From: Roseimicrobium sp. ORNL1
Lineage (GTDB): Bacteria > Verrucomicrobiota > Verrucomicrobiia > Verrucomicrobiales > Verrucomicrobiaceae
Reading direction: 5' to 3'
NCBI RefSeq assembly: GCF_011044495.1
Contig: NZ_CP049143.1
Location: 2,046,001-2,110,000 of the forward strand
Length of the DNA: 64,000 nt
Shown piece after piece: positions 35,495-55,558 of the stretch. A program made the position numbers and the translations under genes. The notes under the pieces are model-generated. The model searched no databases. It worked only from the letters and a program-made list of their open reading frames with translations, and was not told the DNA's origin. Position 1 is the first letter of the stretch. Each line of letters opens with the position of its first letter.

Positions 35495-36310
35495 CTAGAT
35501 GTTGATTGCCGCGGCCTGAGATTTCGAGACATTTCTGATCCCGGCGGCTTCTTTCACGGCCGCGAGCTCCAGCGGCAGGTGTTTTTTGAAAAGCAGGATG
35601 TCCGCGCTGTGGATGAGCAGGTTTGCCCCCAGCTTCAAGAAACGGGCCTGCTGCTCGATGCTGCCCCAGAAGTGAATGCCCGCGCCGATACCCGCTGCTC
35701 GCGCCTTGCGGAAGATGGTTTCACAGGCGGCGAGGAAGTCCGGATGGTCGTACTGCTCCGGCACGCCGAGATTGCATGAGAGATCGTGCGGACCGATGAG
35801 CACGGCATCGAGTCCGGGAACGGCGAGAATGTCATCCAGCGCATCGATGGCGGGCTGGCTTTCGATGTTCACAATGAGCAAGCGGTCGGCAGCGGCTGAG
35901 GTGATGTATTCGTGGAGGTTGGGCTCCGCGGCAGCGCCGTCCAGCATGGACTGCAGCTTGCCACCTTTGATGGGCCGCAACTTTACCGCGCCACGCAGGG
36001 CCTGCACCTGAGCGGTAGTCTCGATGTAAGGAGCGATGATGCCAGCGGCGCCTCCATCCAGCACCATAGTGGCCTCATAGGGACTGGGCGAGGGGATACG
36101 CACCAGCGGCGCGAGCCCCATGCTGCCGTAGATCTGGCACATCCAGGAGAGTTGCTCGCGATCGAGCGCGATGTGTTCCGTGTCGATGAAGACGAAATCC
36201 AACCCGCAACTCCGCACCGCCTCCGGCCACCGTGGGGAGGGAGAGACAATCAACGTGCCAAAGACGTGTTGTCCCTCGTGGAGGGCGGCGGAGAGTTCGC
36301 GGGCATTCAT
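35495..36310 (-). CDS. HpcH/HpaI-family aldolase (class II pyruvate aldolase)
   Basis: A 271-residue cytoplasmic aldolase that would cleave a 4-hydroxy-2-oxo acid to pyruvate (or a related keto acid) and an aldehyde. FVFIDTEHIALDREQL near residue 40 contains the family DxEH motif, and LVRIPSPSPYEA follows. NIESQPAIDALDDI and VLIGPHDLSCNLGVPEQ hold the metal-binding Glu and Asp. The ATG at 36310 (MNARELSAAL) matches family N-termini; the frame open to 36595 is shadow sequence of the next gene. No signal peptide is seen, unlike most neighbours. It may process a sugar acid released from the glycan degraded by the locus. Confidence 0.88.
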   Translation of the reverse strand: MNARELSAALHEGQHVFGTLIVSPSPRWPEAVRSCGLDFVFIDTEHIALDREQLSWMCQIYGSMGLAPLVRIPSPSPYEATMVLDGGAAGIIAPYIETTAQVQALRGAVKLRPIKGGKLQSMLDGAAAEPNLHEYITSAAADRLLIVNIESQPAIDALDDILAVPGLDAVLIGPHDLSCNLGVPEQYDHPDFLAACETIFRKARAAGIGAGIHFWGSIEQQARFLKLGANLLIHSADILLFKKHLPLELAAVKEAAGIRNVSKSQAAAINI

Positions 36311-36342
36311 CGAGCAGGAACGAAGGGGCGCTATTTGCGTGG

Positions 36343-38022
36343 TTACTTTTTCTTCTTGGTTTTCTCGGAGGCCTCCTGCATCTCCTTCGTCCACTCCAGC
36401 ACCTGGTGGTCGGCGATGAGTCTCTCGCGAAGCTTGGCGTAGTCCACCTTTTGCACAGACGTGCCGGTATCGATGGCCTGCACTGCGGCAGTCGCGGCGG
36501 ACTGGCCGAGAATCATGAACACCGGTTCCATGCGGATGGAACCGTACGCCACGTGCGTGGAGGAGAGGCACACGGAGACGAGCAGATTCGAGCACTCGGA
36601 TTCACGCGGTACGATGCTACGGTAGCTCACGGGGTAGGGATGCGGCACTTTGATCTCGATGCAACCCTCAGCCTTCACCTTGCCATCTACGAGGACACGC
36701 GAGGTGTGGTGGGAGTCCATGGTGTAGCTGGCGAGACCCACGCTGTCAGGCACCACTTCCCGGCTGTCGCAGTTCTTTTGCGTCATCACGTAGTCAGAAA
36801 CCATCCGGCGGCCTTCACGCACATAGAGCTCGTGTGGCCAGCCATTGGTCTCGGCGAATTCGCCCTTCGGCAGGCCGAAGCCATTGGTGAACTCGCGTAC
36901 CATTTCCGGCAGCTTCTCATCATGCGCGAGGAACCACATCATGCCCTGCTGGTAGGTCACGTGCTGCTGGAAGATTTTTTCGCGCGTCTCATAGTCCGCA
37001 TCCGGCCAGTCATTGCTGGCGCCGACGAAGTCCGTGGAGATGGGGCCGGCGTTGTTACAATCGCCGATATTGAGCTTCACGGGGCCGCTGCCGTAGGTGA
37101 ACTTCCACTCGGCATTCGGGTCTGTCGTGAGGTAACGCTCCAGCAGGGCGAAGTCGCCGCGGTTGTAGCCTTCCGGCTTGGGCCACGCGATGCCATCTGC
37201 GGCCTTCACCGCCCACATGCGGAAGTTGTAAGCCTGCACGAGTTTGTCGCCGGTACCGGGCGCGGGCAGCGGACCATCGGTGATGCCGGGCAGCAATCCG
37301 CTGCTGGAATCGCCGGGCTTAACATGCGGGTCCACGGGGAAGCGAAACTGGTGGGTCTTCGCGAGTTGGAAGCCATTCACCGTTTCGCCATAGGTGCTGT
37401 TGTCCTCGCGACCCACGAAGTACTTCACGCCGGCTCGTGCGAAGAGGTCACCCTCATAGGTGGCATCGATGAACATCTTGGCTTCGATGCGATTGCCGTT
37501 TTCAAAGACGAGCGCGGTGATGCGGTTGCCATCCTTCTCCACGGTCTTGAGGCGATGCTCGTAGTAGACAGGCACATTGGCCGTGCTGAGCATCTTCTGG
37601 AAGATGACCTCGGCCTGGGAAGGACGGAAGCCCAGCTCGCCGCTCACATCATTCATGGCCTCGCGCTTCGCGGTGCTGGCGCTTTTCAGGAACTCCGCAC
37701 CCATGCCGCCGATGGAGCGTGCATTCCCCACGTCTACCGCGGTGAGGCCACCGGAGGTCATGCCACCCACATGACGGCGGAAGACAGCAAGCGCCGCCTT
37801 CTTCCCAAGGCGATGCGCCTGCGTCGCGGCGGCCACGCCACCGGGAGTGCCACCGTACACGCACACATCCACCTGGATGGTCTGCGCGGGATTCGCCGCT
37901 GGCACGGGGTAGTAGTAGCGAAGACCGGGGTTCGGCGTGGCAGGGCCGTCAGCAGCAGACGCCAGGGAGGCGGTACAGACGCACGTGGCCGCTGTGGCGA
38001 GGGAGAGAAGCAGGCGATTCAT
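36343..38022 (-). CDS. Exported FAD-dependent oxidoreductase (FAD_oxidored family), paralogue 2
   Basis: A 559-residue relative of the protein at 32056-34092. The signal peptide MNRLLLSLATAATCVCTASLASA sets the start at 38022. VDVCVYGGTPGGVAAATQAH is the FAD-binding loop and VGGMTSGGLTAVDVG follows. ATYEGDLFARAGVKYFVGRE and IRMEPVFMILGQSAATAAVQA are the shared segments. It lacks the C-terminal extra regions of the other two copies, and the terminal residues are Lys-rich (EKTKKKK). It lies 32 bases before the aldolase gene in the direction of transcription, so the two may be coupled. Confidence 0.9.
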   Translation of the reverse strand: MNRLLLSLATAATCVCTASLASAADGPATPNPGLRYYYPVPAANPAQTIQVDVCVYGGTPGGVAAATQAHRLGKKAALAVFRRHVGGMTSGGLTAVDVGNARSIGGMGAEFLKSASTAKREAMNDVSGELGFRPSQAEVIFQKMLSTANVPVYYEHRLKTVEKDGNRITALVFENGNRIEAKMFIDATYEGDLFARAGVKYFVGREDNSTYGETVNGFQLAKTHQFRFPVDPHVKPGDSSSGLLPGITDGPLPAPGTGDKLVQAYNFRMWAVKAADGIAWPKPEGYNRGDFALLERYLTTDPNAEWKFTYGSGPVKLNIGDCNNAGPISTDFVGASNDWPDADYETREKIFQQHVTYQQGMMWFLAHDEKLPEMVREFTNGFGLPKGEFAETNGWPHELYVREGRRMVSDYVMTQKNCDSREVVPDSVGLASYTMDSHHTSRVLVDGKVKAEGCIEIKVPHPYPVSYRSIVPRESECSNLLVSVCLSSTHVAYGSIRMEPVFMILGQSAATAAVQAIDTGTSVQKVDYAKLRERLIADHQVLEWTKEMQEASEKTKKKK

Positions 38023-38078: not shown

Positions 38079-39608
38079 TCATGACGGCTTGCCGGCGATC
38101 GCAGCGAGACTGAAGAGTTTTGCGTTCTTGAGTTCAATCAAGATGCGCACCGGGCGGTCTGTGGGGACGGTGGCTCCCGACTTCCATGAGGCTTCCCATT
38201 GCGTGGCGTCTTCGCGTAGTCCGCTACTCTCATCGAGACTGAGCCCCGGGATGGGTGAACCGTTTGCCTCCAGCGTCGCGATGCGTACAAGCCCATGCTT
38301 TCCTGTGGCGGCATTGATGATGAGGCGGGTAGAAGTGAGGTGGAGGGGAATGGTCTGCACGCTGCCTATTGCGTCTTTTGCATCCAGTGAAGCAAAGCCG
38401 TGCCTCCGCCAGACAGCGCGACCGATGGCATTGCGTTTCTCTGGAAGCGCTCCTCCATGGGAAGTCGTGAGTCCCGTGTAGTACATCCACGTTTCATCTC
38501 CCACGTGCACCGCCGTGCTCGATACGCTGAGGATGGTGCCAGCGTCAAAGCCACCCGGTGCGCCGCGCGCGATGACCGGAACACGCGGCTCCGTACGCTG
38601 CCAGTGGAGTCCATCTGCGCTCGTGATCAGCTGGACATCAATGTAGCCATCCGTGGGACTCTGACCTTTGGGGAAGGGGATGGACTTGCCTTCCGGTGAG
38701 AGGTTCTTGCGGTCGGGCGCAGTGACGCGGAAGATGGCGGGGAAGCCGAGATAGCCCGCAGCATGCGGGAGCACGGACATGTTGTTCACCTCGGTGCGCT
38801 GCTTGGGTTCGGTGATCCAGTCGTCATCAGCTTCGTCCGGGGCGAAGGTGAGTTCCGCCTTGCTCCAGGTCGCAAAATCCTTGCTGCGTGAAAGCCACAC
38901 CGTGCGACGCGACGTGCCGCGGATGGTGGCGTGCAAGCGATGGTAGGCGAGGTAGTCTCCGGTGGTGGGGTCTTGCGCGAGGCTGATGTTGTCTCCCTCG
39001 GGAAAGATGGGTTTCTTGTCCGGATAGCTGGTCCACTTCAGGCCGTCGGGTGAGACGGCCGCGTAGTAGTCACCTCCGAAGTAGCCGAGCATCTTCCAGC
39101 GCTTGGCCGGGTCCGTCTCGTGCTTGTCTAGCAGCACGCTGGGACTGTGCAGGTCAAATACGATGTTGTTCGCCTTGGAACCGGCGAAAGCGTGCAGATT
39201 CAGCACAGGCTTCTCCCACGTGATGCCGTCTCGCGAGGTGGCATACAGCACCACATCATAGCGGTTCCGCCGGAATCCAGGAACCGCGATGTCCTTGATA
39301 TTCGGGATGGCTTCCTGCCGGGTGAGGTACCACATGCGGAAGCCCCCGCTGGATTCATCCGGATAGACGGAACCGTGGATGTAGACCCGGTCGCCTTCCC
39401 AGAATTTATCCGCCTGCAGCACCGGCGTGGTGGACTGTTTTGCGGGATGAATGGTACGTGTGACGCCGCTCTTTGAGGAGATGCCGCTGTCGTCCGCGAA
39501 GAGCAGCGGCAACTCGCCCAAGTTGATACTCCTCTCCTCTGCTGAGGCGCCTGTGCTCGTGAAGAGATGCAGACACCAGGTGATGCTGAGGCAGAGGAGC
39601 AGGCGCAT
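38079..39608 (-). CDS. Exported beta-propeller glycosidase-like protein
   Basis: A 509-residue exported protein (signal peptide MRLLLCLSITWCLHLFTSTGASA, start at 39608). It has repeated blade motifs such as YATSRDGITWEKPVL, AAVSPDGLKWTSYPDKKP, WLSRSKDFATWSKAEL and ITSADGLHWQRTEP. These resemble GH32/GH43-type or BNR-like five- or six-bladed propellers. The C-terminal ~130 residues are a beta-sandwich-like domain (LTSTRLIINAATGKHGLVRI). No catalytic residues can be fixed by eye. It ends 9 bases before the next gene's last codon region (39617) and belongs to the minus-strand run. Confidence 0.8.
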   Translation of the reverse strand: MRLLLCLSITWCLHLFTSTGASAEERSINLGELPLLFADDSGISSKSGVTRTIHPAKQSTTPVLQADKFWEGDRVYIHGSVYPDESSGGFRMWYLTRQEAIPNIKDIAVPGFRRNRYDVVLYATSRDGITWEKPVLNLHAFAGSKANNIVFDLHSPSVLLDKHETDPAKRWKMLGYFGGDYYAAVSPDGLKWTSYPDKKPIFPEGDNISLAQDPTTGDYLAYHRLHATIRGTSRRTVWLSRSKDFATWSKAELTFAPDEADDDWITEPKQRTEVNNMSVLPHAAGYLGFPAIFRVTAPDRKNLSPEGKSIPFPKGQSPTDGYIDVQLITSADGLHWQRTEPRVPVIARGAPGGFDAGTILSVSSTAVHVGDETWMYYTGLTTSHGGALPEKRNAIGRAVWRRHGFASLDAKDAIGSVQTIPLHLTSTRLIINAATGKHGLVRIATLEANGSPIPGLSLDESSGLREDATQWEASWKSGATVPTDRPVRILIELKNAKLFSLAAIAGKPS

Positions 39609-41510: not shown

Positions 41511-44500
41511 TTATCGGCGCTCCTTGGCTAACTTGTCCGTTTCCTGCAGGTTGAAGCGGGCGCTGACCACGGAGTTCTGCTCGGGCCCTTCGCGATACTT
41601 GATGTAGGTGGTCGCGACGAAGGTGCCGTCCGGCAGCAGTTCCAGCCCGGGGTAACCGCAGTCGCCGCCCTTGTAGCTGTGGAGGAGTTTCAGGCGGTAC
41701 TGCCCATCGCGGCCCGCGATGATGTCCTCATACTTGCCGACCCACGCCACGAAATGAGTCTTCGTGGGGCTCTTCAGCCCAGTGTCGCGGAAGCAGACCA
41801 CGAGTCTGCCGTCCTCTGCGTAGTGAGCCATATGGCGATCGCCATGCAGGCCGGCGGGAAGGGGCTTGGCTTGGGACCAGGTCTGGCCCTCGTTGTCGCT
41901 GGTCATATAGAGCGCTACTCGTTGTTCGTTCTCGCGGATGAGGCAGAGCAGTTGTTTGCCATTGGGAGAGCGGACGAGTTGGGGTTCGCAAGGTTTGAGA
42001 TCTCCCATGTCGAGGATGATCTTCCAGGGGCTCCACGTGAAGCCACCATCTTCAGAGATGCTCTGGGTCAGGATGTTGGATTTCTTGTCCTTGGTCTCGC
42101 CGGGGCGGCGGATGTTGGTGAGGCCAAGCAGCTTCTTTCCACCTTCGATGGGAACGATGGTGCAGAAGGGCATGACGCAGGTGAGCTTGTTCGAAGTCAT
42201 GGGGGACCAGGTCTTGCCTTCGTCCTCTGAAACGGATTGATGCATGGCGCCATCTGGTCCCTGACCGGCGAAGACAAACAGGCGTACCTTGCCCTGCGGA
42301 TCTGTGAGGCGGTAGATGGAGGGGCAGTTCTTCACGGTCTTCCAGCTCTCCGGCACCGGGAGGAGTTGGCTCCAGGTCTTGCCGCCATCATCGCTACGCT
42401 TGAGCGGTCCACAGGTGCCTCCGTGCTTGTAGGTCCACACACAGTACATGGTCTTTCCATCCGGCAGGAGCACGGTGGTGGGGTGACCTTGATACTCCTC
42501 CGGCGTGCCCTGGGCGATGACCACCTGACGCGCGGTGTCCTTTGAAAGATCCACAGCGGCCGCGGGCTTGGGCGCGAAGATGTCCTCCAGCGGCCAGGTG
42601 TCTGTGCGGAAGGGGGAGGCGGGGAGGCCTGCACCGTTGTAGAGATTGCAAACCGGGCTGCTTTCCCAGGCGTAGCGCACCGCGACCGGATTGGGTGTAT
42701 CAGGACTGGATACCGCGATCCTATCGCCTTCAATCACGGCGGTGGCGGGTTTCCACACCTTGTCCTTGCCCGCGATGAGGAAGCTCTTCAGCGGTCCATC
42801 CTTGGCCACGAGTCCGCCATTGGTGTGATCGAAGGAGATGACCACTTTGCTATTCAGGGTTTCCGAGCCCTTGTAGAGCGGACCGGAGGTGGCGGGTACG
42901 TCCTTCTTGTACACGGTGCCGAGCGCCCAGTAGGAGAGTCGCTGGCCCACGCCCTGCTTGTTGCGGGGGTGATTGTCATTCGCCTCGCCGATGTCCACCG
43001 TGATGGCCATGCCAGTATTCTTCACCTTCAGGCTTTCCAGCATCGCTTCGCGCACGAGAGGACGGTAGCCCACGTGCTGGAAGTTCGGGAGCTGCACCCA
43101 GGCGAAGGGCATGTCAGGATTGCCAAAACGTGCGCGCCAGTCGCTCACGAGCAACGGAAGCTGGGTCTTGTACAGCGTGGCCTTCTCAAGACCGGAGCAG
43201 TTGTGCTCGCCCTGGTACCAGATGGCGCCCCGAAGCGCGTAGGGCAGCAGCGGGGCGATCATGCCATTGTAGAGATTTGCCGGATGATTCTGGTCGCGTG
43301 CGGGCTGCTTGTTCAGCTTGGGGCGAGCGGGCGGCTTGACGGCGGTCAGCTTGGCGTCCTTCACTTTCACCTTCCACGCTTCATCGGCCATCAGCCACTT
43401 CGCGTGCACGGCATCGGCATCGTAGGCGAGTTCGTCGGTGGCCCACTGATTCAGCTTCGCCTTCAGGGCGGGTACCTTGGCCTGGGCGTCTTCACTGGTC
43501 CATGCGGCGATGTCGGTACCGCCCCATGAGGAATTGATCATACCCACGGGCTGCTTCAGGGCGAGGTGGAGATCGCGCCCGAAGAAGTAGGCAACGGCGG
43601 AGAAGGTTCCCACTGTTTCTGGTGAGGCGATCACCCATGAGCCCTCGCAATCGGCCTGCAACGCGCGCTGGGCATTCTGCTTCACGGTGAACATGCGAAG
43701 CTCCGGCAGGGCTGCCGCTTGCCGCTCCTCTTCAGGATACTGGCCGCGGGAGAACATGTACGCCATGTTTGACTGGCCCGAGGCGAGCCACACTTCACCC
43801 ACGAGCACATCTTTGATGGTGGAGGTCTTGGCTGCGGTCTTCACCACCATTTCGGAGGGCTTCGCGGAGGTCTTGAATTTGCCGAGGCGAATCAGCCACT
43901 TGCCGCTGACATCAGCCTTGATGGTTTTGGATACACTATTGAAGGTCACGGTGACATCTTCGTATGGCACGGCCCAGCCCCACACGGGAATGATGGTGTC
44001 TGACTGCAGCACCATGTGATCGGAGAAGATGGCAGGCAGGGAGAGTTCCTGTTTCCAGTCATCGGTGCGGAAAGGCGCGGCGGGGAGCCCCGCGCCATTG
44101 TAGAGGGATGCGATGGGGTTGTCCGTCCACGCATAACGAGCCGCGACGGGTTGCGCGATTTCCGGATGGGAGAGCACCACGGTGTCCTTTACCAGGGCTG
44201 CATCGGCGGTGTGCCACTTGCGGTCGGATCCCGCGATTTGGAAGCCCTCAAGCGAGCCGCTTTTGGCCTTCAATCCGCCATCCGTACCGGTGAATGTGAG
44301 GGTCACTTTGCCGTCTTTCACGTCACGACTGGCGAGGCGCGGCCCTGAGGATACGACATCCTTCACCTTGTAGACGTCACCGAGTGCCCAGGCGGCGAGA
44401 CGTTTGCCCACGGCTTGTTTGTTTCTGGGGTGCACATCGCGCACTTCACCCACATCGATGGTCACGGCCATGCCGGTGTGGGGCACCGTTTTGAGAGTCT

Positions 44501-45575
44501 TGTCCTGTGCTTCGCGAACATCGACCCACGATGGGGAACGTTGGATGTTCGGAAGCTGTACAAATCCGAAGGGCAGCTCCGGTTGATTCCAGCGGGTGCG
44601 CCAGTCTTTGATGAGCAGGGGAAGCTGCGTCTCGTAGAAGCGCGTGAGTTGCGGGCTCGCATTGCTCTCGCCCTGGTACCAGATGATGCCGCGGATGGCG
44701 TAGGGGACGAGCGGCGCAATCTTTCCATTGAAGAGATTCCCCAGCACGGTGGCGCGCTCATGAGAGGCGACAGGATCGCGGGGGGTGCGCGTGGGCAGCG
44801 GTTTGCCTTCTGCCTTGGCACGCTCGACACCTTCTTTGAAAAGGGTGACCTGCTGCTCGAACTTTGCCTTTTCCGCGGCCGCATCGAAGGCGGCGCGTGT
44901 GGCGTCATTTTGCGTGATAAAGTCCTTCAACGCCGGTTCCTTCTGTTGTTCTTCCGCGCTGATCCAGGCCTCGATGCGTGTGCCGCCTACGGAGGAGTTG
45001 ATAAGTCCTACCGGAGTGCCGAGCTTCTGATGCAGTTCCCGACCGAAGAAATAGGCCGTGGCAGAGAAACTGCCAACTGTATCGGGTGAGCACACATGCC
45101 ACGCACCTTTGCCTTCCTCCTGCGGTGACGCTGCGCCGGGAGATGACTCAATGTACATGCGTACCTGGGGCAGGTTCGCGTTCTTCTTTTCCTCCTCGAA
45201 GTTCAACGCGCTGCTGACTCGCATGCCCATGTTGGACTGGCCGGAGCAGAGCCAGGTTTCACCGACCAGAATGTCCTTCACGGTGATCATGTTCTTGCCT
45301 TTGGCGACGAGTGTTTGCGGCTCCTTGGTGGCCGCCAGTTTTTCGAGAGTGACCTTCCACTTGCCTGACTCATCAGCCTTCGCAGTAGCGGATTGGCCTG
45401 CGATGGTGATGGAGACCTCTTCCCCGGGGTCTGCTTTGCCCCACACTGGGACGGGCACTCCTGATTGCAGGACGGCGTGATCGGAGAACAGGGAGTTCAG
45501 CTTCACATTTGCCCGAGCGCCCGTGGTGGCGCACGCAGCGAGCAAGGTAGCGAGGAAGATGGAACGTCGTTTCAT
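41511..45575 (-). CDS. Fusion protein: two sialate O-acetylesterase modules plus a sialidase-like propeller
   Basis: A 1354-residue exported protein (signal MKRRSIFLATLLAACATTGARA). Module 1 (about 24-505) has the SGNH-hydrolase nucleophile Ser114 in SGQSNM, WYQGESN near 299-305, and DVHPRNK with His382. Module 2 (about 512-995) repeats this order: SGQSNM with Ser602, WYQGEHN near 787, and DNHPRNK with His869. Both catalytic sites look intact. Module 3 (about 1015-1354) is a sialidase-like propeller with Asp-box motifs (SDDGGKTW, SEDEGKTW, SEDGGFTW, SDNEGQTW). It lacks a recognisable RIP arginine motif. Removing 9-O-acetyl groups and sugar in one chain would suit an acetylated sialo- or related glycan. 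Such a double-esterase fusion is unusual. Confidence 0.9.
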   Translation of the reverse strand: MKRRSIFLATLLAACATTGARANVKLNSLFSDHAVLQSGVPVPVWGKADPGEEVSITIAGQSATAKADESGKWKVTLEKLAATKEPQTLVAKGKNMITVKDILVGETWLCSGQSNMGMRVSSALNFEEEKKNANLPQVRMYIESSPGAASPQEEGKGAWHVCSPDTVGSFSATAYFFGRELHQKLGTPVGLINSSVGGTRIEAWISAEEQQKEPALKDFITQNDATRAAFDAAAEKAKFEQQVTLFKEGVERAKAEGKPLPTRTPRDPVASHERATVLGNLFNGKIAPLVPYAIRGIIWYQGESNASPQLTRFYETQLPLLIKDWRTRWNQPELPFGFVQLPNIQRSPSWVDVREAQDKTLKTVPHTGMAVTIDVGEVRDVHPRNKQAVGKRLAAWALGDVYKVKDVVSSGPRLASRDVKDGKVTLTFTGTDGGLKAKSGSLEGFQIAGSDRKWHTADAALVKDTVVLSHPEIAQPVAARYAWTDNPIASLYNGAGLPAAPFRTDDWKQELSLPAIFSDHMVLQSDTIIPVWGWAVPYEDVTVTFNSVSKTIKADVSGKWLIRLGKFKTSAKPSEMVVKTAAKTSTIKDVLVGEVWLASGQSNMAYMFSRGQYPEEERQAAALPELRMFTVKQNAQRALQADCEGSWVIASPETVGTFSAVAYFFGRDLHLALKQPVGMINSSWGGTDIAAWTSEDAQAKVPALKAKLNQWATDELAYDADAVHAKWLMADEAWKVKVKDAKLTAVKPPARPKLNKQPARDQNHPANLYNGMIAPLLPYALRGAIWYQGEHNCSGLEKATLYKTQLPLLVSDWRARFGNPDMPFAWVQLPNFQHVGYRPLVREAMLESLKVKNTGMAITVDIGEANDNHPRNKQGVGQRLSYWALGTVYKKDVPATSGPLYKGSETLNSKVVISFDHTNGGLVAKDGPLKSFLIAGKDKVWKPATAVIEGDRIAVSSPDTPNPVAVRYAWESSPVCNLYNGAGLPASPFRTDTWPLEDIFAPKPAAAVDLSKDTARQVVIAQGTPEEYQGHPTTVLLPDGKTMYCVWTYKHGGTCGPLKRSDDGGKTWSQLLPVPESWKTVKNCPSIYRLTDPQGKVRLFVFAGQGPDGAMHQSVSEDEGKTWSPMTSNKLTCVMPFCTIVPIEGGKKLLGLTNIRRPGETKDKKSNILTQSISEDGGFTWSPWKIILDMGDLKPCEPQLVRSPNGKQLLCLIRENEQRVALYMTSDNEGQTWSQAKPLPAGLHGDRHMAHYAEDGRLVVCFRDTGLKSPTKTHFVAWVGKYEDIIAGRDGQYRLKLLHSYKGGDCGYPGLELLPDGTFVATTYIKYREGPEQNSVVSARFNLQETDKLAKERR

Positions 45576-45694: not shown

Positions 45695-46879
45695 CTAGGG
45701 GGCAGAACCAGGTTGGGCCGGATGCGAAGCCGTGAGCCATTCAAGATTGAAGCGGGCTACGGTGAGGCGCTTATCGCGCTCGTAGAAGCAGAGGATGGTT
45801 CCGTCCGGCAGCACAGCGAGGTCGGAGTAGGCGCTCGGACCTTCTTCAAGGGTGCGGTTCACTGGCCAAGTCCTGCCGTCGTCGTAACTGATCTTGATGG
45901 AGAGATTGCGCCGCTTGCCGCGACCGCCGGGGATGGGCTTGCCTTCCGCGTCGACTTCGAGGGAGTGTGGATTGCTGAAAATGAGCGTGCCCGGCTTCTT
46001 CGGATAGGCCACGAGGCCACCCATGCAAATAGGTTCCCACAGGGCATCATCGAAGACTGGCTTGCTCCAGCCGGTAGCGCCATCCGCACTCGTGGTGACG
46101 AGGCGACGGCTGACCTTGGATACACTGCGGGTGTTCAGCATCACGCGCCCGTCGGAGAGTTCGGCGACGGAGGTCTCATTGGGGTTCTTGAGTTCGCCCT
46201 CGTTGGGCAGAGGGATCTCGCCAGCTTTCCATGTCGTGCCTCCATCAGCACTGTAAATGGTGCCAGCCATGGAAGGCGCGTGGTCCCCAGGCTTCTTTCC
46301 GTAGGCAAGCCACACCGGCACTACGAGGCGTCCGCTTTTGATCTGGATGCCGTGGCCGGGACCGGTGGCGAGTACGTTCCACGGGCACTTCGGGCGGAAG
46401 GCCTCGAACGCCGAGGTGATTTCCACCGGTTTCGAGAACGTGAGGCCATCATCCGTGCTGCGCATGTAGAAGCAGCGCGCGTAGTTGATGCAGTACAGAA
46501 AGTGAATGGTCTTGCCATCGCGATCGACGATGGCCACGGGATTGTTCACGGTCTGCTCCTTCGCGCCTTCTTCGTCGTGCTTGTGGGGATTGCCCTCAAT
46601 GCGCTCACCGCTGTGCGCGATATGTTGTGGTGCCGACCACGTCTTGCCACCGTCCGTGCTGCGTCGCAGGTGCACTTCGATCTCGCCCCAGTCCGAGCCT
46701 GCCTTGCGACGGGCTTCGCTGTAGGCGAGTACGGTGCCCTTCGTGGTGACGACGATGCCGGGAATGCGGTAGAGGGCCGAGCCGCCTTCGCCACCGGCGA
46801 AGAGGTCGAGCTTTTCGATGGCGGGTTCAGCGGCGAAGACTTGCAGGGAAAGTAGACAGGTGAGGAAAGCGTAGCGCAT
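45695..46879 (-). CDS. Exported sialidase (exo-alpha-sialidase family), RIP motif intact
   Basis: A 394-residue GH33-type protein with signal peptide MRYAFLTCLLSLQVFA; the ATG at 46879 replaces a spurious longer frame from 46954. LYRIPGIVVTTKGT holds the F/YRIP motif, whose Arg binds the sialic acid carboxylate. Five Asp-box or Asp-box-like repeats are visible (STDGGKTW, STDDGLTF, SADGGTTW, SADGATGW, SYDDGRTW), as expected for the six-bladed propeller. NETSVAELSDGRVMLNTRS matches the family segment before a further binding arginine. It is the most canonical sialidase of the group, but PVC relatives can have other glycan specificities. Confidence 0.9.
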   Translation of the reverse strand: MRYAFLTCLLSLQVFAAEPAIEKLDLFAGGEGGSALYRIPGIVVTTKGTVLAYSEARRKAGSDWGEIEVHLRRSTDGGKTWSAPQHIAHSGERIEGNPHKHDEEGAKEQTVNNPVAIVDRDGKTIHFLYCINYARCFYMRSTDDGLTFSKPVEITSAFEAFRPKCPWNVLATGPGHGIQIKSGRLVVPVWLAYGKKPGDHAPSMAGTIYSADGGTTWKAGEIPLPNEGELKNPNETSVAELSDGRVMLNTRSVSKVSRRLVTTSADGATGWSKPVFDDALWEPICMGGLVAYPKKPGTLIFSNPHSLEVDAEGKPIPGGRGKRRNLSIKISYDDGRTWPVNRTLEEGPSAYSDLAVLPDGTILCFYERDKRLTVARFNLEWLTASHPAQPGSAP

Positions 46880-46914: not shown

Positions 46915-48141
46915 CTACTTCTGCTGAGACACATCCTTGCCATCCGTGAGCCACTCCAGGTTGAAGCGAGCTACGGTGAGACGGTCACCGGCGAAGCCAG
47001 CCTTCTCTCCGCGTCCGTAGAAGCAGAGGATGGTGCCATTCTTGGTCACAGCGATGTCGCTATACGCGCTCCACTCGGGTTCGATGGATTTGTTGACGGC
47101 CCAAGTCTTGCCTTCGTCATAGCTGACTTTCACAGAGACATTGCGGCGGTCGCGATTCTTGCCGGGTTCTTCCTTGCCAGTGGCCTTCTTGAGGTTGTCC
47201 GGGTTGCTGAAGAGGATGCGGTTTTTGCCGCCGGTGGCTTCCGAGGAGTAGCGCACGATGGCACCCATGCAGATGGGCTCGAGCAAGGCGTCATCAAATT
47301 TCGGCGTGCTCCAGCCGGTGGCGCCGTCCTTGCTGATGGTGACAAGGCGGCGATGGGCCTTCGATTCGCTGCGTACATTCAGCATCACACTGCCGTCCGC
47401 GAGCTCGATGGCCACGGTCTCATTCGGATTGATCCATTCCTCCGTGCAGGGTACGGCGACTTCACCCGCGTGCCAGGTCTTGCCCTGGTCATCGCTGTAG
47501 ATGGTGGAGGTTACGGAAGGCCGATGCGCATTCCCACCTGTTCCAGTGGAGAGCCACACAGGCACTACGAGTCTGCCGCTTTTCGTTTGGATGCTGTGAT
47601 TTGGACCCGTGGCGAGCACCTTCCAGTCATAGTCCTTTTTGAACTTCTCAAACGTGCTCGTGATCTCGACCGGTGCGCTCCACGTGAGGCCGTCATCTTT
47701 GCTCTGCTGGTAGAAGCAGCGCATGTACTCAACGCAAAAGAGCATGTGCACCGTGCCGTCCTTGTCTGCGATGAGAACCGGGTTGTTGTAAGTCACGTCC
47801 TTAGGGTCCACGTTCTTCATCACCAACGAGAAGGGATTTTTCGTGTGTGGACCGGGCACGTTCGCGATCTTTTTCGCTTCGCTCCAGGTCTTGCCGTCAT
47901 CGGTGGAGCGGCGCAGCAGGATGTCGATTTGATCCCAGTCGCCGCCCTTCAAGCGTGCCTCGCACCAGGCAAGCACAGTCCCTTTGGCGGTGACCACGAT
48001 GCCGGGGATGTGCTGGAGCTTGTAGCCATTTTCGCCGGCCTTGAAGAGGTCGAGCTTTTCAAGGAAGGGTTCGGCGGCGCGGGCAGGCGTGGTGGAGGCG
48101 AGCGCCAGTGAAAGGAAGGTACAACAAGCGAGGAGTTTCAT
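46915..48141 (-). CDS. Exported sialidase-family protein with altered RIP motif (HIP)
   Basis: A 408-residue protein with signal peptide MKLLACCTFLSLALASTTPARA. It resembles the adjacent sialidase closely (LEKLDLFKAGENGYK, ILLRRSTDDGKTW, NETVAIELADGSVMLNVRSE). However, the YRIP motif reads LQHIPGIVVTAKGT: His, encoded by CAC, replaces the Arg that holds the sialate carboxylate. Asp boxes are kept (STDDGKTW, SKDDGLTW, SDDQGKTW, SKDGATGW). The gene is probably a tandem duplicate of the one at 45695 that has changed substrate. Whether it is still catalytic cannot be told from sequence. Confidence 0.88.
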   Translation of the reverse strand: MKLLACCTFLSLALASTTPARAAEPFLEKLDLFKAGENGYKLQHIPGIVVTAKGTVLAWCEARLKGGDWDQIDILLRRSTDDGKTWSEAKKIANVPGPHTKNPFSLVMKNVDPKDVTYNNPVLIADKDGTVHMLFCVEYMRCFYQQSKDDGLTWSAPVEITSTFEKFKKDYDWKVLATGPNHSIQTKSGRLVVPVWLSTGTGGNAHRPSVTSTIYSDDQGKTWHAGEVAVPCTEEWINPNETVAIELADGSVMLNVRSESKAHRRLVTISKDGATGWSTPKFDDALLEPICMGAIVRYSSEATGGKNRILFSNPDNLKKATGKEEPGKNRDRRNVSVKVSYDEGKTWAVNKSIEPEWSAYSDIAVTKNGTILCFYGRGEKAGFAGDRLTVARFNLEWLTDGKDVSQQK

Positions 48142-48205: not shown

Positions 48206-48964
48206 TCACCACTCACCATGACGCTGGAACTTCTCTTTGACGTTCTCACCAAACTTCGCGGCAGCGGCGTTGAGTCCGTCGAGAATCTCCCGCGTGCTCT
48301 TGCCCGCGGTGTCGCGAGCAGCGGGAATGACGGTCAAGCACTCATTGGCATCCATGAAGCGGGATGCCTCCAGCAGGTTGGGTTGCTCATGCTCCGGCAC
48401 CACAAGGAAACCGTGCTTGTCCGCATGAATGAGATCTCCCGGCGATACCTTGCGGCCGAAGACCTCCACTTCGCAATTCCAACGCACGGGGTGGGAGTAG
48501 GCATGCCCCACGCAGAGGCGGCGGGCGAGGGCCTTGAACCCGGCATTGGTCATTTCGTCGAGGTCGCGAATGGCGCCGTCCGTGATGGTGCCCACGCAAC
48601 CGAGGGCGCGGTGCATGTTGCTGTTCACCTCGCCCCAGAAGGCACCGTAGGTGTTGGGCTTGTCGAGATCCTGCACGATCACGATCTTGGGTCCGGGAAT
48701 GCTGGCCACATAGTCGCGATATTCGGTCCAGCCTTTGGGGTTCTCATCGCGATGGCTCTTCTCACCTGGCTGGATGACAACTGTTACAGCGTAGCCCACC
48801 ATGGGGCCCATCTGGGGCATGAAGTCGCGCGTCTCTTCAGGGTTGAAGGCTTCGCGTGCGATGTTGCGCTTGGTGACCTGTTCCCAACCATTGTAGATGG
48901 TGGGGGTGTTCCAGCGTTTCAGTTGAAGGAGGTCGGCGTGGGTGATGGGGCGGGTTGAACTCAT
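48206..48964 (-). CDS. RraA-family protein (4-hydroxy-4-methyl-2-oxoglutarate aldolase / oxaloacetate decarboxylase-like)
   Basis: A 252-residue cytoplasmic protein. The start was set at 48964 (MSSTRPITHADLLQLKRW); the frame open to 49105 overlaps another gene and has no similarity. GCVGTITDGAIRDLDEMTNAGF is the signature region and includes the DGxxRD motif that binds metal and substrate. PGDLIHADKHGFLVVP is also conserved. RraA-like proteins include aldolases that release pyruvate, oxaloacetate decarboxylases and RNase E regulators. In a catabolic locus that also encodes an HpcH/HpaI aldolase, a keto-acid lyase is the better guess. Confidence 0.85.
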   Translation of the reverse strand: MSSTRPITHADLLQLKRWNTPTIYNGWEQVTKRNIAREAFNPEETRDFMPQMGPMVGYAVTVVIQPGEKSHRDENPKGWTEYRDYVASIPGPKIVIVQDLDKPNTYGAFWGEVNSNMHRALGCVGTITDGAIRDLDEMTNAGFKALARRLCVGHAYSHPVRWNCEVEVFGRKVSPGDLIHADKHGFLVVPEHEQPNLLEASRFMDANECLTVIPAARDTAGKSTREILDGLNAAAAKFGENVKEKFQRHGEW

Positions 48965-49019
48965 GGAGATGAAATGAAAAGAGAAAGGCAGGGGACAGAG
49001 AGATGAGATGTGTGAGCTT

Positions 49020-50243
49020 CTATTTTGAAGAGCCGAGTTTCGCGGTTGCAGTTTCATTCGGCTTCGCCCAATGGATGCGGGCGAGGAGGACGCGATTGGC
49101 TTCATCCAGGCGATCTTTGGGAAAGCTCGCTTCGGAGGTGACGACCCAGGTTTCCTGCGGGTTCAGGTCCATCACACCGAAGTTTCCGAGGTCGACGCCC
49201 GTCTCTGGCATGAGCACCTGCTCCGTCTTGCGCAGTACACACAGCTTTTCAAGGTCCACCTGCGCAATGAAGAGCGGGGCACGATGACGAAAGACGTGGT
49301 CGTTGTTCGCGCCGCGTCGGGTGTAGACAAGATAAAGTCCGTCACTGTGTGTCACCCAGTGCTGCTGGGTATTGTAGCTGCCGAGCACTTGGCCGTCGTC
49401 ATACCTCCACTCGACGATGGGTTCGTAATTGATGCCATCCTTGCTGCGCGCCACGAAGGCAGACTTGTCTGCGCGCATGGTGACGAAGTAGCTGCCGTCA
49501 ATACCAGCCACTGAGGGCTCGTACAGGCCGCGTCCGCCGGCGTCCCCCGTGGTGAGTTCCGAACCGTGTTCCTTGTAGGTGAGCGTTTTCCCATCAAAAC
49601 CACAGCGCGCCACGATGGTGGTATACTGGCGGGTCTTGGGATCCTTTCGATAGCGGATGGGCAGAAGGATCTCGCCGTTCTCCAGATCAAAGCGCTGATG
49701 GCAGCCCGCATTCGCCTCCAGCATGGGTCTGCCCTCGCGATCCTTCTCGGGGAGTTGCACGATGTTCAGCCCACTCCATGCCTGCGTCTTGGGGTCGTAT
49801 ACGGTGTAGGACACCCGCTCCCGAGCCCGGTCCTCCGTCTTGCCATCGCGGAAGTTGAAGGTCTTTCCCGTGGCCAACACGACGCCGGTCTTCGCGTGCC
49901 ACTGCGGACACACATCGCCAATGACGATGTCATATCCATCTGCCTGCCTGGCCCGGCGCAGGTTCTCGATGTGGACAGGTGTTTTCCACGCGCGCCCGAG
50001 ATCCTCGCTGAAGACATGGAGCATGTCACGATAGCCATGCGCGCCGGTGAGTTCCGTCTCCTGGGTAGTGAGGATGACTTGCTGGGGAGTGCCGGCGATG
50101 ATCGCGGTGCGAGACTGCGTGAAGTGCAGTCCCTTTTTCCCCGTGAGGATCGTCTGGTGCTCAATGCGATAGGCAGCCGACTCCTCCCCATGGGTAGAAG
50201 CGACCAAGGCAAGTACAAGCGTAGAAATGGCGAAGCGAAACAT
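49020..50243 (-). CDS. Exported sialidase-like propeller protein, divergent
   Basis: A 407-residue exported protein (signal MFRFAISTLVLALVASTHG). The ATG at 50243 is preferred to an in-frame TTG at 50258. Blade-like repeats are present (VFSEDLGRAWKTP, FVARSKDGINYEPIV), but Asp boxes are degenerate and no RIP motif is seen (FTQSRTAIIAGTPQQ at that place). It fits the sialidase/BNR superfamily as a distant member. The function may be binding or hydrolysis of a non-sialic sugar. It lies between the RraA-family gene and further propeller genes in the same direction. Confidence 0.78.
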   Translation of the reverse strand: MFRFAISTLVLALVASTHGEESAAYRIEHQTILTGKKGLHFTQSRTAIIAGTPQQVILTTQETELTGAHGYRDMLHVFSEDLGRAWKTPVHIENLRRARQADGYDIVIGDVCPQWHAKTGVVLATGKTFNFRDGKTEDRARERVSYTVYDPKTQAWSGLNIVQLPEKDREGRPMLEANAGCHQRFDLENGEILLPIRYRKDPKTRQYTTIVARCGFDGKTLTYKEHGSELTTGDAGGRGLYEPSVAGIDGSYFVTMRADKSAFVARSKDGINYEPIVEWRYDDGQVLGSYNTQQHWVTHSDGLYLVYTRRGANNDHVFRHRAPLFIAQVDLEKLCVLRKTEQVLMPETGVDLGNFGVMDLNPQETWVVTSEASFPKDRLDEANRVLLARIHWAKPNETATAKLGSSK

Positions 50244-50281
50244 GAGGAAGAAACGCAAGGTGCGTTGAGAACGTGCAGGAC

Positions 50282-51631
50282 TTATCGCGCAGTGACCTTA
50301 GCCGCTTCGCGCTCCAAATCTCCCTGGGTGGGAAGATATGGAATCGCCGACTCCTTCAATGTGAGATGGAGCACCTGCTGCCAGCGATGCGGCAGGAAGA
50401 GGTGCATGACTTCACCATCCATGAAGGCATCCAGATAGGAGCACTGGTGATTGAAGCCGCCCACCGCGAGATTTGCCTCCACGGCATTCACCATGGCAAA
50501 GCGCGGTTCTGTCCAGGTGTGCCCGCCATCCGCGGTCGTGGAGATCCACAGCTCCGTGCGCATCTTCATGGTCTCTGCCTTGTCACTCAGTTCGCCCGGC
50601 TTGGTCTTGGGCACACGGCGATGATGGAAGGCGGCGAGTGTCTTCCCATCCGAGAGCGGGAAGAGCATGGGCGGAGCATCGGGGTGCACGAGCGGGCAGG
50701 GGGAGGGCTTGGTCCAGGTCTTGCCATCATCCTCGCTCCACGCGGTGAAGAGATGGCCCTGCGGCGTGCGGGTCATGAAGAGCACCTTACCCTTGCCGAG
50801 ATTGATGGGGCGACCTTCATCCATGCGGTCGAATCCCTCCGCGTACCATCCATTCGGCCGCGAACCGGGGAGCAGGGTCCAGGTCTTGCCCTTGTCCTCC
50901 GAGCGCAGGAGGTATTGTTTGGTCTTGAGGGGCTTCACCGACCAATCCGCAAGGTGCGAGCCCAGCAGCCACGTGCCGGCATCGGTCTCTGTCATGCGCA
51001 TGACAGACATACCAAGGAAACCGGGATCGTTCTGCGGCTTGATGAGCGCCACTTCGGACCAGGTGTGGCCGTCATCATCAGAATAGCGATAGCCGATGGG
51101 CGCATTCTCCTGCTGGCCATCCTTCCACGAATATTTGTCCGGGATGGGTTGTGTGCCGAAGGCGTAGATGCGGTTGGTGCCTTTGGGGATGAAGGGGATG
51201 AAACCATGCTGGCTGTAGGGGATGTCATACGCCACGGTGGGTCCCTGCCACGTGAGGCCGCGATCCTTGGAGCGATAGGCGAGCATGACATTCATCTTCT
51301 CGCCCTTGCTCTTGGCATAGTGATCACCTTCAGGGAAGAGCAGGAGGAAGTCGCCGTTGGGCGTGATGGTCGCGCGTGTTTCGAGAATGCGTGACTTCGT
51401 GCGATGCACCACCTGCCCTTCGATGGCTGCGGCAGTGACCAGACCGAGCGACTCACGGAGCTTCAGCTCAGGAGGCAGTGCCGCGGTGCGGAGTTGCATC
51501 TGCTGAATGGAAACTGTTTCCGCGATGGGCAGAGGCGGCAGCGCTGGTGCCGGTTCTGCCGACCATGCACATGGAATGTTCGCAGTGACAGAGACAATGA
51601 CACAGGCCAGGAAGAGTAAGGAAGCTTTCAT
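50282..51631 (-). CDS. Exported sialidase-family (BNR-repeat) protein
   Basis: A 449-residue exported protein (signal MKASLLFLACVIVSVTANIPCAWS). Good Asp boxes are YRSKDRGLTW, YSDDDGHTW, RSEDKGKTW, WSEDDGKTW and TTADGGHTW, giving a six-bladed propeller. The segment where RIP is expected reads ILETRATITPNGDFLLLFPEG: an Arg is present but the motif is changed. Its start codon overlaps the stop of the next sialidase gene upstream by an ATGA arrangement (51628-51631), so the two are translationally coupled. It is therefore likely to work together with that enzyme. Confidence 0.86.
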   Translation of the reverse strand: MKASLLFLACVIVSVTANIPCAWSAEPAPALPPLPIAETVSIQQMQLRTAALPPELKLRESLGLVTAAAIEGQVVHRTKSRILETRATITPNGDFLLLFPEGDHYAKSKGEKMNVMLAYRSKDRGLTWQGPTVAYDIPYSQHGFIPFIPKGTNRIYAFGTQPIPDKYSWKDGQQENAPIGYRYSDDDGHTWSEVALIKPQNDPGFLGMSVMRMTETDAGTWLLGSHLADWSVKPLKTKQYLLRSEDKGKTWTLLPGSRPNGWYAEGFDRMDEGRPINLGKGKVLFMTRTPQGHLFTAWSEDDGKTWTKPSPCPLVHPDAPPMLFPLSDGKTLAAFHHRRVPKTKPGELSDKAETMKMRTELWISTTADGGHTWTEPRFAMVNAVEANLAVGGFNHQCSYLDAFMDGEVMHLFLPHRWQQVLHLTLKESAIPYLPTQGDLEREAAKVTAR

Positions 51632-52914
51632 GGTGAGGAAGCAGGTATTGCGGAAGCGCCGAGCGAGTCGCGTCCATCGGTGAGCCATTCGAGATTGAAT
51701 CGGACAAAGTGCAGCTCATCCCAGTAGTGCGTGCTGCCCTTGGGCCCGCGCTCATAGATGAAACCAACGGTCATGTCATCCAGCACGACCATGTCTGAGT
51801 AGGAGGAAGGGTGTGGCCAGATGGTCTTGCCCGCCGTCCAGGTGGCGCCCTCATCATAGCTCAGGCGCACGGTGAGATTGTAGCGGCCATACGGGTGCTC
51901 GGGCTGGCGGTAAGGAGACGCAGGACTGGAAAAGAGGAGGCGGTTCTTTCCCTGCTTCTCCGCAAGCGTGAAACGCTCCACCGGTCCATGACAGCGGGGC
52001 GAGATGAGTTCCTCAGCGCGCTTCGGAGCGGTCCACGTTTCACCACCATCTTTGCTGATGGCAGTAAGATGGCGGATGTTGTCCGGCGCATCGGTACTGC
52101 TTTCGTTGCGAGACATCACCATGAGAGAGCAGTCCGCCAGTTCCACGAGCTGGCACTCGCTGGTGTGCATGCCGATGTTTCCGCCGAGCTTCCACGTCGC
52201 GCCGTGGTCATCGCTGTAAAAGGAATGCGCGAAACTGCGCAGTCGTCCCTTGCCAATGTCTTCACGATGTCGCGCAGACACCACGAGTCGGCCAGCCTTG
52301 GGTCCCTTGCTGAGTTGCACCATGCCATTTCCCGGGCCGCAGCCGTAGCGCTGCACCCAGTCCTTTTCCCACATGGCCATGCGGCCTTTGGGATTTGCCG
52401 GCTCCTCGGCATCGGACTTGCCCTTGAGCGCATCCCACTCGGGCTTTGTCACCTGTTCATGGATGGACACCGGCCCCTGCCAGGTGCGGCCATGGTCGGT
52501 GCTGGTGAAGTGGACGAACTTCTTCTTGTCCCGCAGGAAGAAGAGCCACAGCTTTCCGTTGCTGTGGTCCATGCCTACGGTGATGTCGGTGGAGACGCCC
52601 TTCTCGTCGTCGAAGATCATCTGCTCAGCACCCCACGTCCCGCCTTTGTCGGAGCTGCGCTTCAGCACGATGTCGTGATTGCCAATGTCACCCGGGCCAT
52701 CGTTGCGCTTCTCCGCAAAGACCAGGAGGTCTCCATTCTGTGCCTGCAGGATGGCGGGGATGCGGTAGTTCGGCTTGTTGTCCGGAGTCACCGGGAAGAG
52801 GCACACAGTCTGAAAAAGTGGCTCCGCGGCAGACGCGAACGGAGACACCGCCAGCAGCGCGCACAGTACAGAGCCGCTGAGGGAGGGGAAATGGAGTTGC
52901 CGCCGGGGGAACAT
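51628..52914 (-). CDS. Exported sialidase (exo-alpha-sialidase family), first gene of the minus-strand locus
   Basis: A 428-residue protein with a signal peptide ending at SPFASA. PNYRIPAILQAQNGDLLVFAE has an intact RIP motif followed by the family AExR-like segment (AEKRND). Asp boxes include SSDKGGTW, STDHGRTW, SDDHGATW, SKDGGETW and SYDEGATW. SRNESSTDAPDNIRHLTAIS and the ERGPKGSTHY tail match bacterial sialidases, and the tail Tyr lies in the expected nucleophile region. It is one of two copies in the locus that keep the RIP arginine. It is divergent from the histidine kinase gene across a 175-base gap. Confidence 0.9.
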   Translation of the reverse strand: MFPRRQLHFPSLSGSVLCALLAVSPFASAAEPLFQTVCLFPVTPDNKPNYRIPAILQAQNGDLLVFAEKRNDGPGDIGNHDIVLKRSSDKGGTWGAEQMIFDDEKGVSTDITVGMDHSNGKLWLFFLRDKKKFVHFTSTDHGRTWQGPVSIHEQVTKPEWDALKGKSDAEEPANPKGRMAMWEKDWVQRYGCGPGNGMVQLSKGPKAGRLVVSARHREDIGKGRLRSFAHSFYSDDHGATWKLGGNIGMHTSECQLVELADCSLMVMSRNESSTDAPDNIRHLTAISKDGGETWTAPKRAEELISPRCHGPVERFTLAEKQGKNRLLFSSPASPYRQPEHPYGRYNLTVRLSYDEGATWTAGKTIWPHPSSYSDMVVLDDMTVGFIYERGPKGSTHYWDELHFVRFNLEWLTDGRDSLGASAIPASSP

Positions 52915-53044: not shown

Positions 53045-53061
53045 TTGGCATGATGGGTGCT
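53045..53061 (+). promoter_or_regulatory. Candidate sigma-54 (-24/-12) promoter of the kinase/regulator operon
   Basis: TTGGCATGATGGGTGCT matches the consensus YTGGCACG-N4-TTGCW with GG at 53047-53048, GC at 53059-53060 and exactly ten bases between. Transcription would begin near 53072, 18 bases before the ATG at 53090. That also rules out the in-frame GTG at 53057. The operon encodes a sigma-54 activator, so autoregulation is plausible. Confidence 0.55.
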
Positions 53062-53089
53062 GTTCTCACGCTCAGCGCGTCGCGCCCTC

Positions 53090-55558
53090 ATGCCCTCCCT
53101 CCAGTCCCGAAGCTCGCCCGCCAGGGCACCTGCCATGCTGGCACTGGTGCTGGGGGTGCTTTTGTCTACTGCTCTCGGCGTTTTTCTTCGTCGTGGGCAG
53201 GACCACGTGTGGGAGGAAGAAGTGCGGATGCTGGCGCAGGACCGTGTGGAGGTGATTCAGGGGCAGATCCTCCGCTCCATGGAGGTGTTGCACGCCGTGG
53301 CGGCCTTCTTTGATGCGCATCCCGATGCGACGCGTGCTGAGTTCCGCGTTTTTGTGGATCGCGCTCTTTCACGACAGCCAGAGTTGCAGGCGCTGGCGTG
53401 GGATCCGCGTGTGCCCGGCAGTGAGCGCAGTGCGTGGGAAAATCGAGCGCGCGCGGAGGGCTTTCCCACATTTGGATTCACGGAGGAGAAGGCGCACGAG
53501 GAAGGTGTCATCGTGCCCGCAGCGGCACGAGATGAGTATTTCCCGGTGTATTATCTGGAGAGCCTCCAGCGGAATGTTGCGGCTCTGGGATTCGACGTCG
53601 GGGCAGAGCCCAGACGACGCGAGGCGCTGGAGCGTGCGCGGGATGCTGCCCAACCGTGTGCCACTGTGCCCATTCGCCTGGCACAGGAGCCTGGATCACA
53701 AAAAGGCTTCATCGTCTTCCTCCCGGTTTATTCCGAAACATCGCCACCTGCCACGGTGGAAGCACGACGCGATGCGCTACGCGGCTTTGCCACGGCCGTG
53801 TTCCGCATTGGTGACCTTGTGAATCTTTCCCTGCGAACGGTGGGCGAGAATGGTGTGGCCCTTACAGTTTATGATCAAGCGGATGGCTCCCTGCTCTACC
53901 GGCAGGTGGGGGATCGCCTGCCGAATCGCCCTGCGTGGCAATCCTCGGTGGAGGTCGCGGGGCGTCATTGGACGCTGAGCTTCGAGCCGATCAAAGGATT
54001 CGTTGCGCCGGCATCAGATACACTGCTGTGGCTGGCGCCGGGCTCTGCCATGCTCATCACGCTGTTGCTATCCAGTTATCTGTGGAGCAGTGCGCGTCGT
54101 GCGGCGGAGCTGCGGCGCTCGCATGAATCGCTGGAAACCGAGGTGCTCGTGCGCAAGCAGGCGGAGGCTGCGGCAGAGTCTGCCAACCGGGCGAAGTCGG
54201 AATTCATCGCGAACATGAGCCACGAGATCCGCACCCCGATGAATGCCATCATCGGGTACTCGCAGATTCTCGCAAGGGATGCGACATTGCCCCCCTTCCA
54301 TCGAGACGCGGTGGCCACCATCTTGAGCAGTGGCGATCACCTGCTGCACATCATCAACGAGATTCTGGATCTCTCAAAGATCGATGCCGGGCGGATGGAA
54401 CTGGAGCCGGTGGATTTTGAGCTCTCTGCGCTGATTCGCGAGTTGGAGGCCATGTTCCACCACCCGTGTGAGGAGAAGAAGCTCGGTCTTCGCATCGAGG
54501 CCGCCCCATTGGATCAACTCACCTGGGTGCATGGAGATGAAGGAAAGCTCCGACAAGTATTGATCAATCTCCTGGCGAATGCCGTGAAGTTCACTGCGCG
54601 CGGGCGCGTGACCCTGCGCGTGCTGCAGGGTGAGGCGGATCACTGGCGCTTCGAAGTGGAGGATACGGGCATGGGGATTGAGCCAGAGGTGCAGGCACAG
54701 ATCTTTGAGCCTTTCCAACAAGGACCCGGGGCGCGGGGCAGGGGAGGCACAGGGCTGGGACTGGCCATCGCACGGCGGCAGGTGGAGATCATGAGTGGCA
54801 AGCTGGAGGTACGGTCTGAGCTCGAGGTGGGTTCTTGCTTCGCGGTATCTGTGGCGTTGCCAGCCGCAGCCATTGCGCGAGGTCATGCACCGCCTGTCTT
54901 GCGCGAGGTGAAGAGTCTTGCCGACGGTTGCCGCGTGCGTGCACTGGTGGTGGATGATATTGCGGAGAATCGCGAGGTGCTCTCCACCATGCTCACACTG
55001 ATTGGTTGTGAGGTGGTGCTCGCCGAGAACGGCCGCCAGGCACTCGAGGCAGTGCGCGTATCCCGACCGCAGATCGTCTTCATGGACATGCGCATGCCCG
55101 AGTTGGACGGCGTGGAGGCCACGCGTCGCATCGCAGAAGAGTTCGGAGAGACAGGCGTGAAGGTCGTGGCAACTTCCGCCTCGGCGCTCTCGCATGAAAA
55201 GGAGCAATACCTCAAGGCAGGTTGCGATGATTTCGTAGCCAAGCCCTTTCGCGCAGAGCGCATCTACGCTTGTTTGCTGCACCTGCCTGCCGTGGAGTTC
55301 GTCTATAAGGAACGGCCTGCTGCGGATGAATCAGGTGAGACCATCGACTTGCGTCAGCTTGCCCTGCCCGAGGACCTCGCCAGTCGTCTTGCCGTGGCGG
55401 CAGAGTTGCACAGCGCCACCGTGCTGAAGAGCTGTCTCGGCGAGGTGGAGAAGCTGGGCCCTGCCGGCGAACGCCTCGCGCAGCACCTGCGGGGATTCCT
55501 CGCGAGCTATGACATGAAGTCCATCCAGCGACTTGTCGCCCAGATACCCGTCACCTGA
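53090..55558 (+). CDS. Hybrid sensor histidine kinase with CHASE domain and C-terminal receiver
   Basis: An 822-residue membrane kinase. A first transmembrane segment ([17 protein letters not shown]) and a second near residues 311-331 ([19 protein letters not shown]) bracket a periplasmic CHASE domain ([18 protein letters not shown]), which senses an external small ligand. HisKA has the phospho-acceptor His378 in [18 protein letters not shown]. The ATPase boxes are LLANAVKF (N), DTGMGI (G1), FEPF (F) and GGTGLGLAI (G2). A receiver follows ([11 protein letters not shown]) with phospho-acceptor Asp666 in [11 protein letters not shown], and a helical tail ends the protein. The sigma-54 regulator gene starts 10 bases downstream, so the two form a pair. 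Start chosen at the ATG at 53090. Confidence 0.92.

Follow-up and report, generated by a model that had tools for sequence, protein, structure and literature searches.

The gene at 46915-48141 of the window, the whole 64,000-nt stretch of Roseimicrobium sp. ORNL1 DNA analysed here, is, as judged from sequence, the local member of a single-origin GH33-like subfamily, mostly from Verrucomicrobiota, in which a histidine takes the place of the first arginine (Arg1) of the sialidase arginine triad. We refer to this subfamily as the HIP clade. The pattern of kept and changed residues makes it most likely, with moderate confidence on our part, that the HIP protein is an active, exo-acting ketosidase of nonulosonates whose pocket is remodelled on the carboxylate side; a step from this remodelling to a new substrate is plausible. 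A large and stable natural clade without Arg1 offers a ready-made test of the role of each triad arginine, and a new ketosidase specificity might come from it. HIP genes of Verrucomicrobiota that are automatically annotated as "sialidase" may be mislabelled.

A histidine at the RIP arginine of a sialidase-type propeller

The window holds the HIP gene and two further GH33-like paralogues:

46915..48141, minus strand, GH33-like protein with His for the RIP arginine, ORF of 408 aa
48010..48012, minus strand, His44 of this protein, codon CAC, at the place of triad Arg1 (sequence and aligned relatives)
45695..46879, minus strand, neighbouring GH33-like paralogue with RIP intact, likely start ATG at 46879 (ORF listed to 46954)
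51628..52914, minus strand, third GH33-like protein with RIP intact

The motif reads YKLQHIPGIVV in the HIP protein, ALYRIPGIVV in the neighbour at 45695 and NYRIPAIL in the third paralogue. The Arg-to-His replacement relative to this neighbour, with CAC as the codon, had been reported in the first-pass annotation and was confirmed when both ORFs were re-read. Read by eye, the 408-aa protein has an apparent signal peptide. BNR, BNR_2 and BNR_3 Pfam matches lie above cut-off, and Asp-box (BNR) repeats are thus present; a sequence comparison with solved proteins places GH33 sialidases nearest (best E 2.2e-28). The structure model (pLDDT 95.6) matches 2ber with a Z score of 44.6 and an rmsd of 2.3 over 328 residues, and its best Foldseek match is 1eur (E 2.6e-27), so that the protein is predicted to fold as an ordinary sialidase-type beta-propeller of GH33. 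Note that no GH156 or GH181 entry was named among the 50 matches listed in the structure comparisons, which excludes nothing. The earlier statement that the rest of the propeller is kept thus holds, on the predicted fold, the Asp-box matches and the retained catalytic residues described below.

Spread and single origin of the HIP clade

The comparison with related sialidase-like sequences that the annotation had proposed was run. Among 114 distinct sequences, residue 44, read in fetched loci only, is His in 67 and Arg in 43; 4 sequences lack the position, and no third residue occurs. Both His codons are used (CAC in 63 of the 67 copies, CAT in 4). Identity to the window protein is 68.6-93.4% for the His copies and at most 63.7% for the Arg copies. 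Four short rows were set aside from the locus survey. A scan of a species-genome collection returned 62 relatives, a set biased to close kin because the search patterns were drawn from the window protein.

In a sample of the phylum, 23 of 387 genomes match at 1e-50, and in the window's own family, Verrucomicrobiaceae, 60 of 68 match at 1e-100. Counted by hand, a match in the identity band of the His form (displayed at at least 68%) is found in 57 of the 68 family genomes, and in 45 of the 47 that reach 90% completeness with no more than 5% contamination. An Arg-type relative (49-65%) accompanies it at 1e-100 in 35 of these 57 genomes and is not seen at that threshold in the other 22, by the same hand count. 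Most His rows are labelled Verrucomicrobiota. Three are labelled otherwise, L046 as Singulisphaera (Planctomycetota) and L008 and L009 as Lentisphaerae; all three are metagenome bins, and their taxon labels may therefore be unsure. Two tandem His-clade copies lie within one locus at L014, L016 and L018.

In a tree of 89 rows, fewer than the sequences available (L060 lacks position 44 there and L127 is absent), all 49 His rows group together and require one change, with support of 100/100 and recovery in 100% of 200 bootstrap trees. The sister rows, L050 and L012 4221-5408, are both of Arg type (joint group 99/95). Note that the tool warned of long branches among the distant Arg-type rows.

Kept and changed positions of the active site

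The positions that bear on catalysis and on the pocket are, in the window protein:

47938..47940, minus strand, Asp68, acid/base position, kept in 67/67 His copies
47419..47421, minus strand, Glu241, Glu of the Tyr/Glu nucleophile pair, kept in 67/67 His copies
47371..47373, minus strand, Arg257, triad Arg2, kept in 67/67 His copies
47146..47148, minus strand, Arg332, triad Arg3, kept in 65/65 His copies
47062..47064, minus strand, Tyr360, nucleophile position, kept in 65/65 His copies
47014..47016, minus strand, Gly376, codon GGA, Glu in Arg-type relatives (aligned relatives)
47965..47967, minus strand, Trp59, in 67/67 of the His clade

The [Y/F]RIP hallmark of GH33, which carries triad Arg1, is absent from the window protein and from the 67 distinct HIP copies. 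The second conserved GH33 active-site Glu is absent as well: position 376, which lies 16 residues past the catalytic Tyr, is Glu in 36/36 aligned Arg-type rows (3 gaps), and among 65 His rows it is Gly in 61, Ser in 3, Asp in 1 and Glu in none. Because both features are lacking, we do not file the window protein as a sialidase; its predicted fold and its sequence mark it as a homologue of GH33. The same 16-residue spacing separates Y314 from the conserved Glu, E330, in the sialidase of Oerskovia (O. paurometabola) (PMC9782813). From the strand limits of the model, positions 360 and 376 probably face each other across a hairpin. In sialidases, the conserved Glu 16 residues past the Tyr supports Arg1. 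The passages of the sialidase literature searched for a Glu-Arg1 contact held no statement of it.

In a joint alignment of 65 of the 67 His and 42 of the 43 Arg rows that remained after a length cut, positions 44, 59, 123, 133 and 376 separate the His clade from all three of the closest full-length Arg-type rows. These rows, L012 4221-5408, L050 and L127, were picked by identity, and L129 (62%) was removed from them as it covers residues 21-87 only. Within the His clade, position 123 is Leu in 61/65 and position 133 is Met in 62/65; the invariant Trp at position 59 is replaced in the 43 Arg-type rows by Tyr (22), Phe (14) or other residues (7).

The annotation had also raised, as a possible refutation, an Arg from another loop that might fill the place of Arg1. 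An arginine unique to the clade is not found in the alignment; two basic residues are candidates for this role. Lys101 and Arg330, the latter two residues before Arg332, occur in every one of the 65 His rows but in few of the 42 Arg rows, where the position of Lys101 holds 2 Lys, 3 Arg and 20 gaps and that of Arg330 holds 9 Arg. Two of the three closest full-length Arg-type rows have a basic residue at each of these positions as well, and both residues therefore seem to predate the loss of Arg1; judging from the alignment, they could have allowed this loss and are candidate compensators. Nearly invariant basic positions of the His clade are also found at 109, 281, 328 and 333.

Gene neighbourhoods in the window and in other genomes

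The HIP gene is one of a run of genes on the minus strand:

48206..49105, minus strand, RraA-like aldolase, a recurrent neighbour of the His clade
49020..50258, minus strand, protein without Pfam or NCBIfam match (c6), a recurrent neighbour
50282..51688, minus strand, BNR-repeat protein
41511..45575, minus strand, one protein with SASA (carbohydrate esterase) matches in 4 stretches and a C-terminal BNR domain
35495..36595, minus strand, HpcH/HpaI-type aldolase, nearby on the same strand
32056-34308 and 36343-38082, minus strand, two PF12831 FAD-dependent oxidoreductases of the same gene run

A polysaccharide deacetylase belongs to the same run, and the short gaps between the genes suggest that the run around 46915-48141 is a single operon. 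The best models of the HpcH/HpaI-type aldolase include 2-keto-3-deoxy-L-rhamnonate and 2-dehydro-3-deoxyglucarate aldolases, all below cut-off. Divergent from the sialidase cluster, at 53057-57068 on the plus strand, lie genes named by eye as a hybrid sensor kinase and a sigma-54-type response regulator.

Several of these neighbours recur elsewhere. In a survey of 29 loci that includes the window, an RraA-like gene is present at 14, the c6-type protein stands beside His-clade genes at 9, and relatives of the PF12831 oxidoreductases, some only about 30% alike, are near them at 8. In a larger count of 58 distinct His loci (at least 7 kb long, gene anywhere in the locus, window itself left out), RraA-like genes occur at 30, GntR/LacI-type regulators at 25, HpcH/HpaI-type aldolases at 9, lyase-like genes at 7 and mutarotase-like genes at 5. 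Loci with only the Arg form, whose lengths differ, have an RraA-like gene in 3/12 and the regulator in 0/12.

The solved protein nearest to the lyase is N-acetylneuraminate lyase 5afd (E 1.2e-65), with its NCBIfam match below cut-off, and the best NCBIfam models of the kelch protein (mutarotase-like) are N-acetylneuraminate epimerase and mutarotase, also below cut-off. Lyase- and mutarotase-like genes are also found at the Arg-type loci L061 and L063, and mutarotase-like ones at L065, L090 and L139; their presence thus speaks for sialic-acid catabolism in general and not for the His form. As the lyase copies belong to two groups of the tree and the mutarotase copies come from a single genus, the independent events behind them are few. 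A lyase neighbour at L138 was a weak match and disappeared at a stricter threshold. The window itself has neither gene, and homologues are found elsewhere in its genome, for the lyase at C1:5993672 (59%) and for the mutarotase at C1:2452793 (51%). Among the neighbours identified at these loci, none pointing to uronic-acid glycosides was seen.

Comparison with known enzymes

With the GH33 exo-sialidases (Micromonospora viridifaciens 2ber/1eus, C. perfringens NanI, T. forsythia NanH), the HIP clade has in common the propeller, the Asp boxes, the catalytic Asp, Tyr and Glu and two triad arginines; it differs from them by Arg1 to His and by Gly for the Glu 16 residues past the Tyr. The R212 mutant of NanH is reported to be inactive (PMC9472817), and 35R of TcTS is listed with the residues described as highly or absolutely conserved in GH33 as a whole (PMC10095477). 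We infer that R212 of NanH corresponds to Arg1, because it precedes the catalytic D237 by 25 residues.

Incomplete triads are described in two other families. GH181, a distant relative of GH33 (Akkermansia Amuc_1547), is a sialidase with Arg, Arg and Gln (PMC10067855) and resembles the HIP clade in having one triad Arg replaced, in its case by Gln. However, as described there, the residues replaced in GH181 are the third Arg and the Tyr nucleophile, and the enzyme inverts, whereas in the HIP clade it is the first Arg that has changed and the Tyr is retained; where GH181 has Gln at both the nucleophile and the third Arg, the window protein has Tyr360 and Arg332. In GH156 (EnvSia156), the carboxylate is held by Arg, Arg and Asn (PMC6811678); this sialidase is described as an inverting enzyme with Asp/His catalysis and a fold other than the sialidase propeller, the type that the HIP model matches. 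Within GH33, the fungal Kdnases (Aspergillus and others) are reported to act on another nine-carbon acid and to keep the Arg triad (PMC11727334), unlike the HIP clade with its missing Arg1. A Kdo hydrolase named for rhamnogalacturonan II degradation (PMC11214529) is a GH33 member acting on a 2-ulosonic acid other than sialic acid. With the Kdnases and the Kdo hydrolase in the family, a changed acid within GH33 is not without precedent. The titles and abstract openings searched named no His-form sialidase and no natural clade without Arg1.

Possible functions of the HIP protein

That the HIP protein is an ordinary Neu5Ac exo-sialidase, with a clamp made of two Arg and the His and a specificity that has not really changed, is possible though unlikely. 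The GH156 and GH181 sialidases work with an Asn or a Gln beside two Arg, the catalytic residues are kept in the HIP clade, the invariant Arg330 and Lys101 could assist, and lyase-like and sialate-mutarotase-like genes adjoin the gene at some loci. Moreover, the His form may be the sole close sialidase in the 22 of 57 His-band genomes without an Arg-type row at 1e-100. Against this, the Arg1 mutant of NanH is inactive, the other 35 of these genomes have an Arg-type relative (49-65%) as well, and five positions changed together. It appears improbable that the protein is a ketosidase whose substrate is a 2-ulosonic acid other than a nonulosonate, such as Kdo or a 3-deoxy-ulosonic acid related to it from plants or bacteria. 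With the rhamnogalacturonan II hydrolase, GH33 already reaches Kdo (PMC11214529), and RraA-like and HpcH/HpaI-type aldolases, the latter with below-cut-off models for 2-keto-3-deoxy-acid aldolases, are near the gene, but the lyase-like and mutarotase-like neighbours suit sialic acids better.

The loss of Arg1 and of the Glu conserved in Arg-type rows, together with the inactive NanH mutant, would also agree with a non-catalytic glycan-binding protein that retained the propeller. We regard this as very improbable, since a lectin would be free to lose the Asp, Glu, Tyr and two other Arg that are invariant in 65-67 copies. Decay or a sequencing error has a practically negligible probability, the same His being present in 67 distinct copies at 68.6-93.4% identity as well as in the window, with both codons in use. 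Apparent pseudogene stops in the His copies L148 and L058 turned out to lie at residues 400-402, the natural end, which the match had overrun. The earlier view that the replacement is not decay is thus well supported by the single origin of the clade, the strict retention of the other catalytic residues and the His-band match present in 57 of the family's 68 genomes.

The companion proposal of the first-pass annotation, a change of substrate, is no more than plausible, given the joint change of Arg44 and Glu376 and the further differences at positions 59, 123 and 133. Losing one Arg does not require a particular new sugar, nor does it point to one, as GH156 and GH181 do without the full triad and the fungal Kdnases keep it. 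Activity itself is argued against by the inactive NanH mutant and by the conservation of TcTS 35R, and argued for by the two-Arg clamps of GH181 and GH156. In the mechanism we favour, that of a remodelled nonulosonate ketosidase, the protein would be an active, secreted, retaining exo-ketosidase on a sugar of the sialic-acid class. Arg257 and Arg332 would hold the carboxylate, and His44, perhaps with Arg330 or Lys101, would complete the clamp. The changed carboxylate/C3 side would suit a substrate or a linkage on which ordinary sialidases act badly, and the freed sugar could be opened and cleaved by the mutarotase- and lyase-type enzymes adjoining the gene in some genomes. It counts against this picture that such lyase- and mutarotase-like neighbours occur at a minority of the His loci, and that they and the RraA-like genes are also present at some Arg-type loci. 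A more specific version, which we put forward as a doubtful conjecture, is that the HIP clade comprises retaining ketosidases of undescribed specificity for nonulosonic acids with a modified carboxylate or with a group on C3, the joint removal of Arg1 and of the conserved Glu opening the carboxylate/C3 face and so allowing that specificity. In RgNanH, Arg1 (Arg257 in that enzyme's numbering) also contacts an axial C3 hydroxyl of siastatin B (PMC4510645), so that removal of Arg1 would alter exactly this face.
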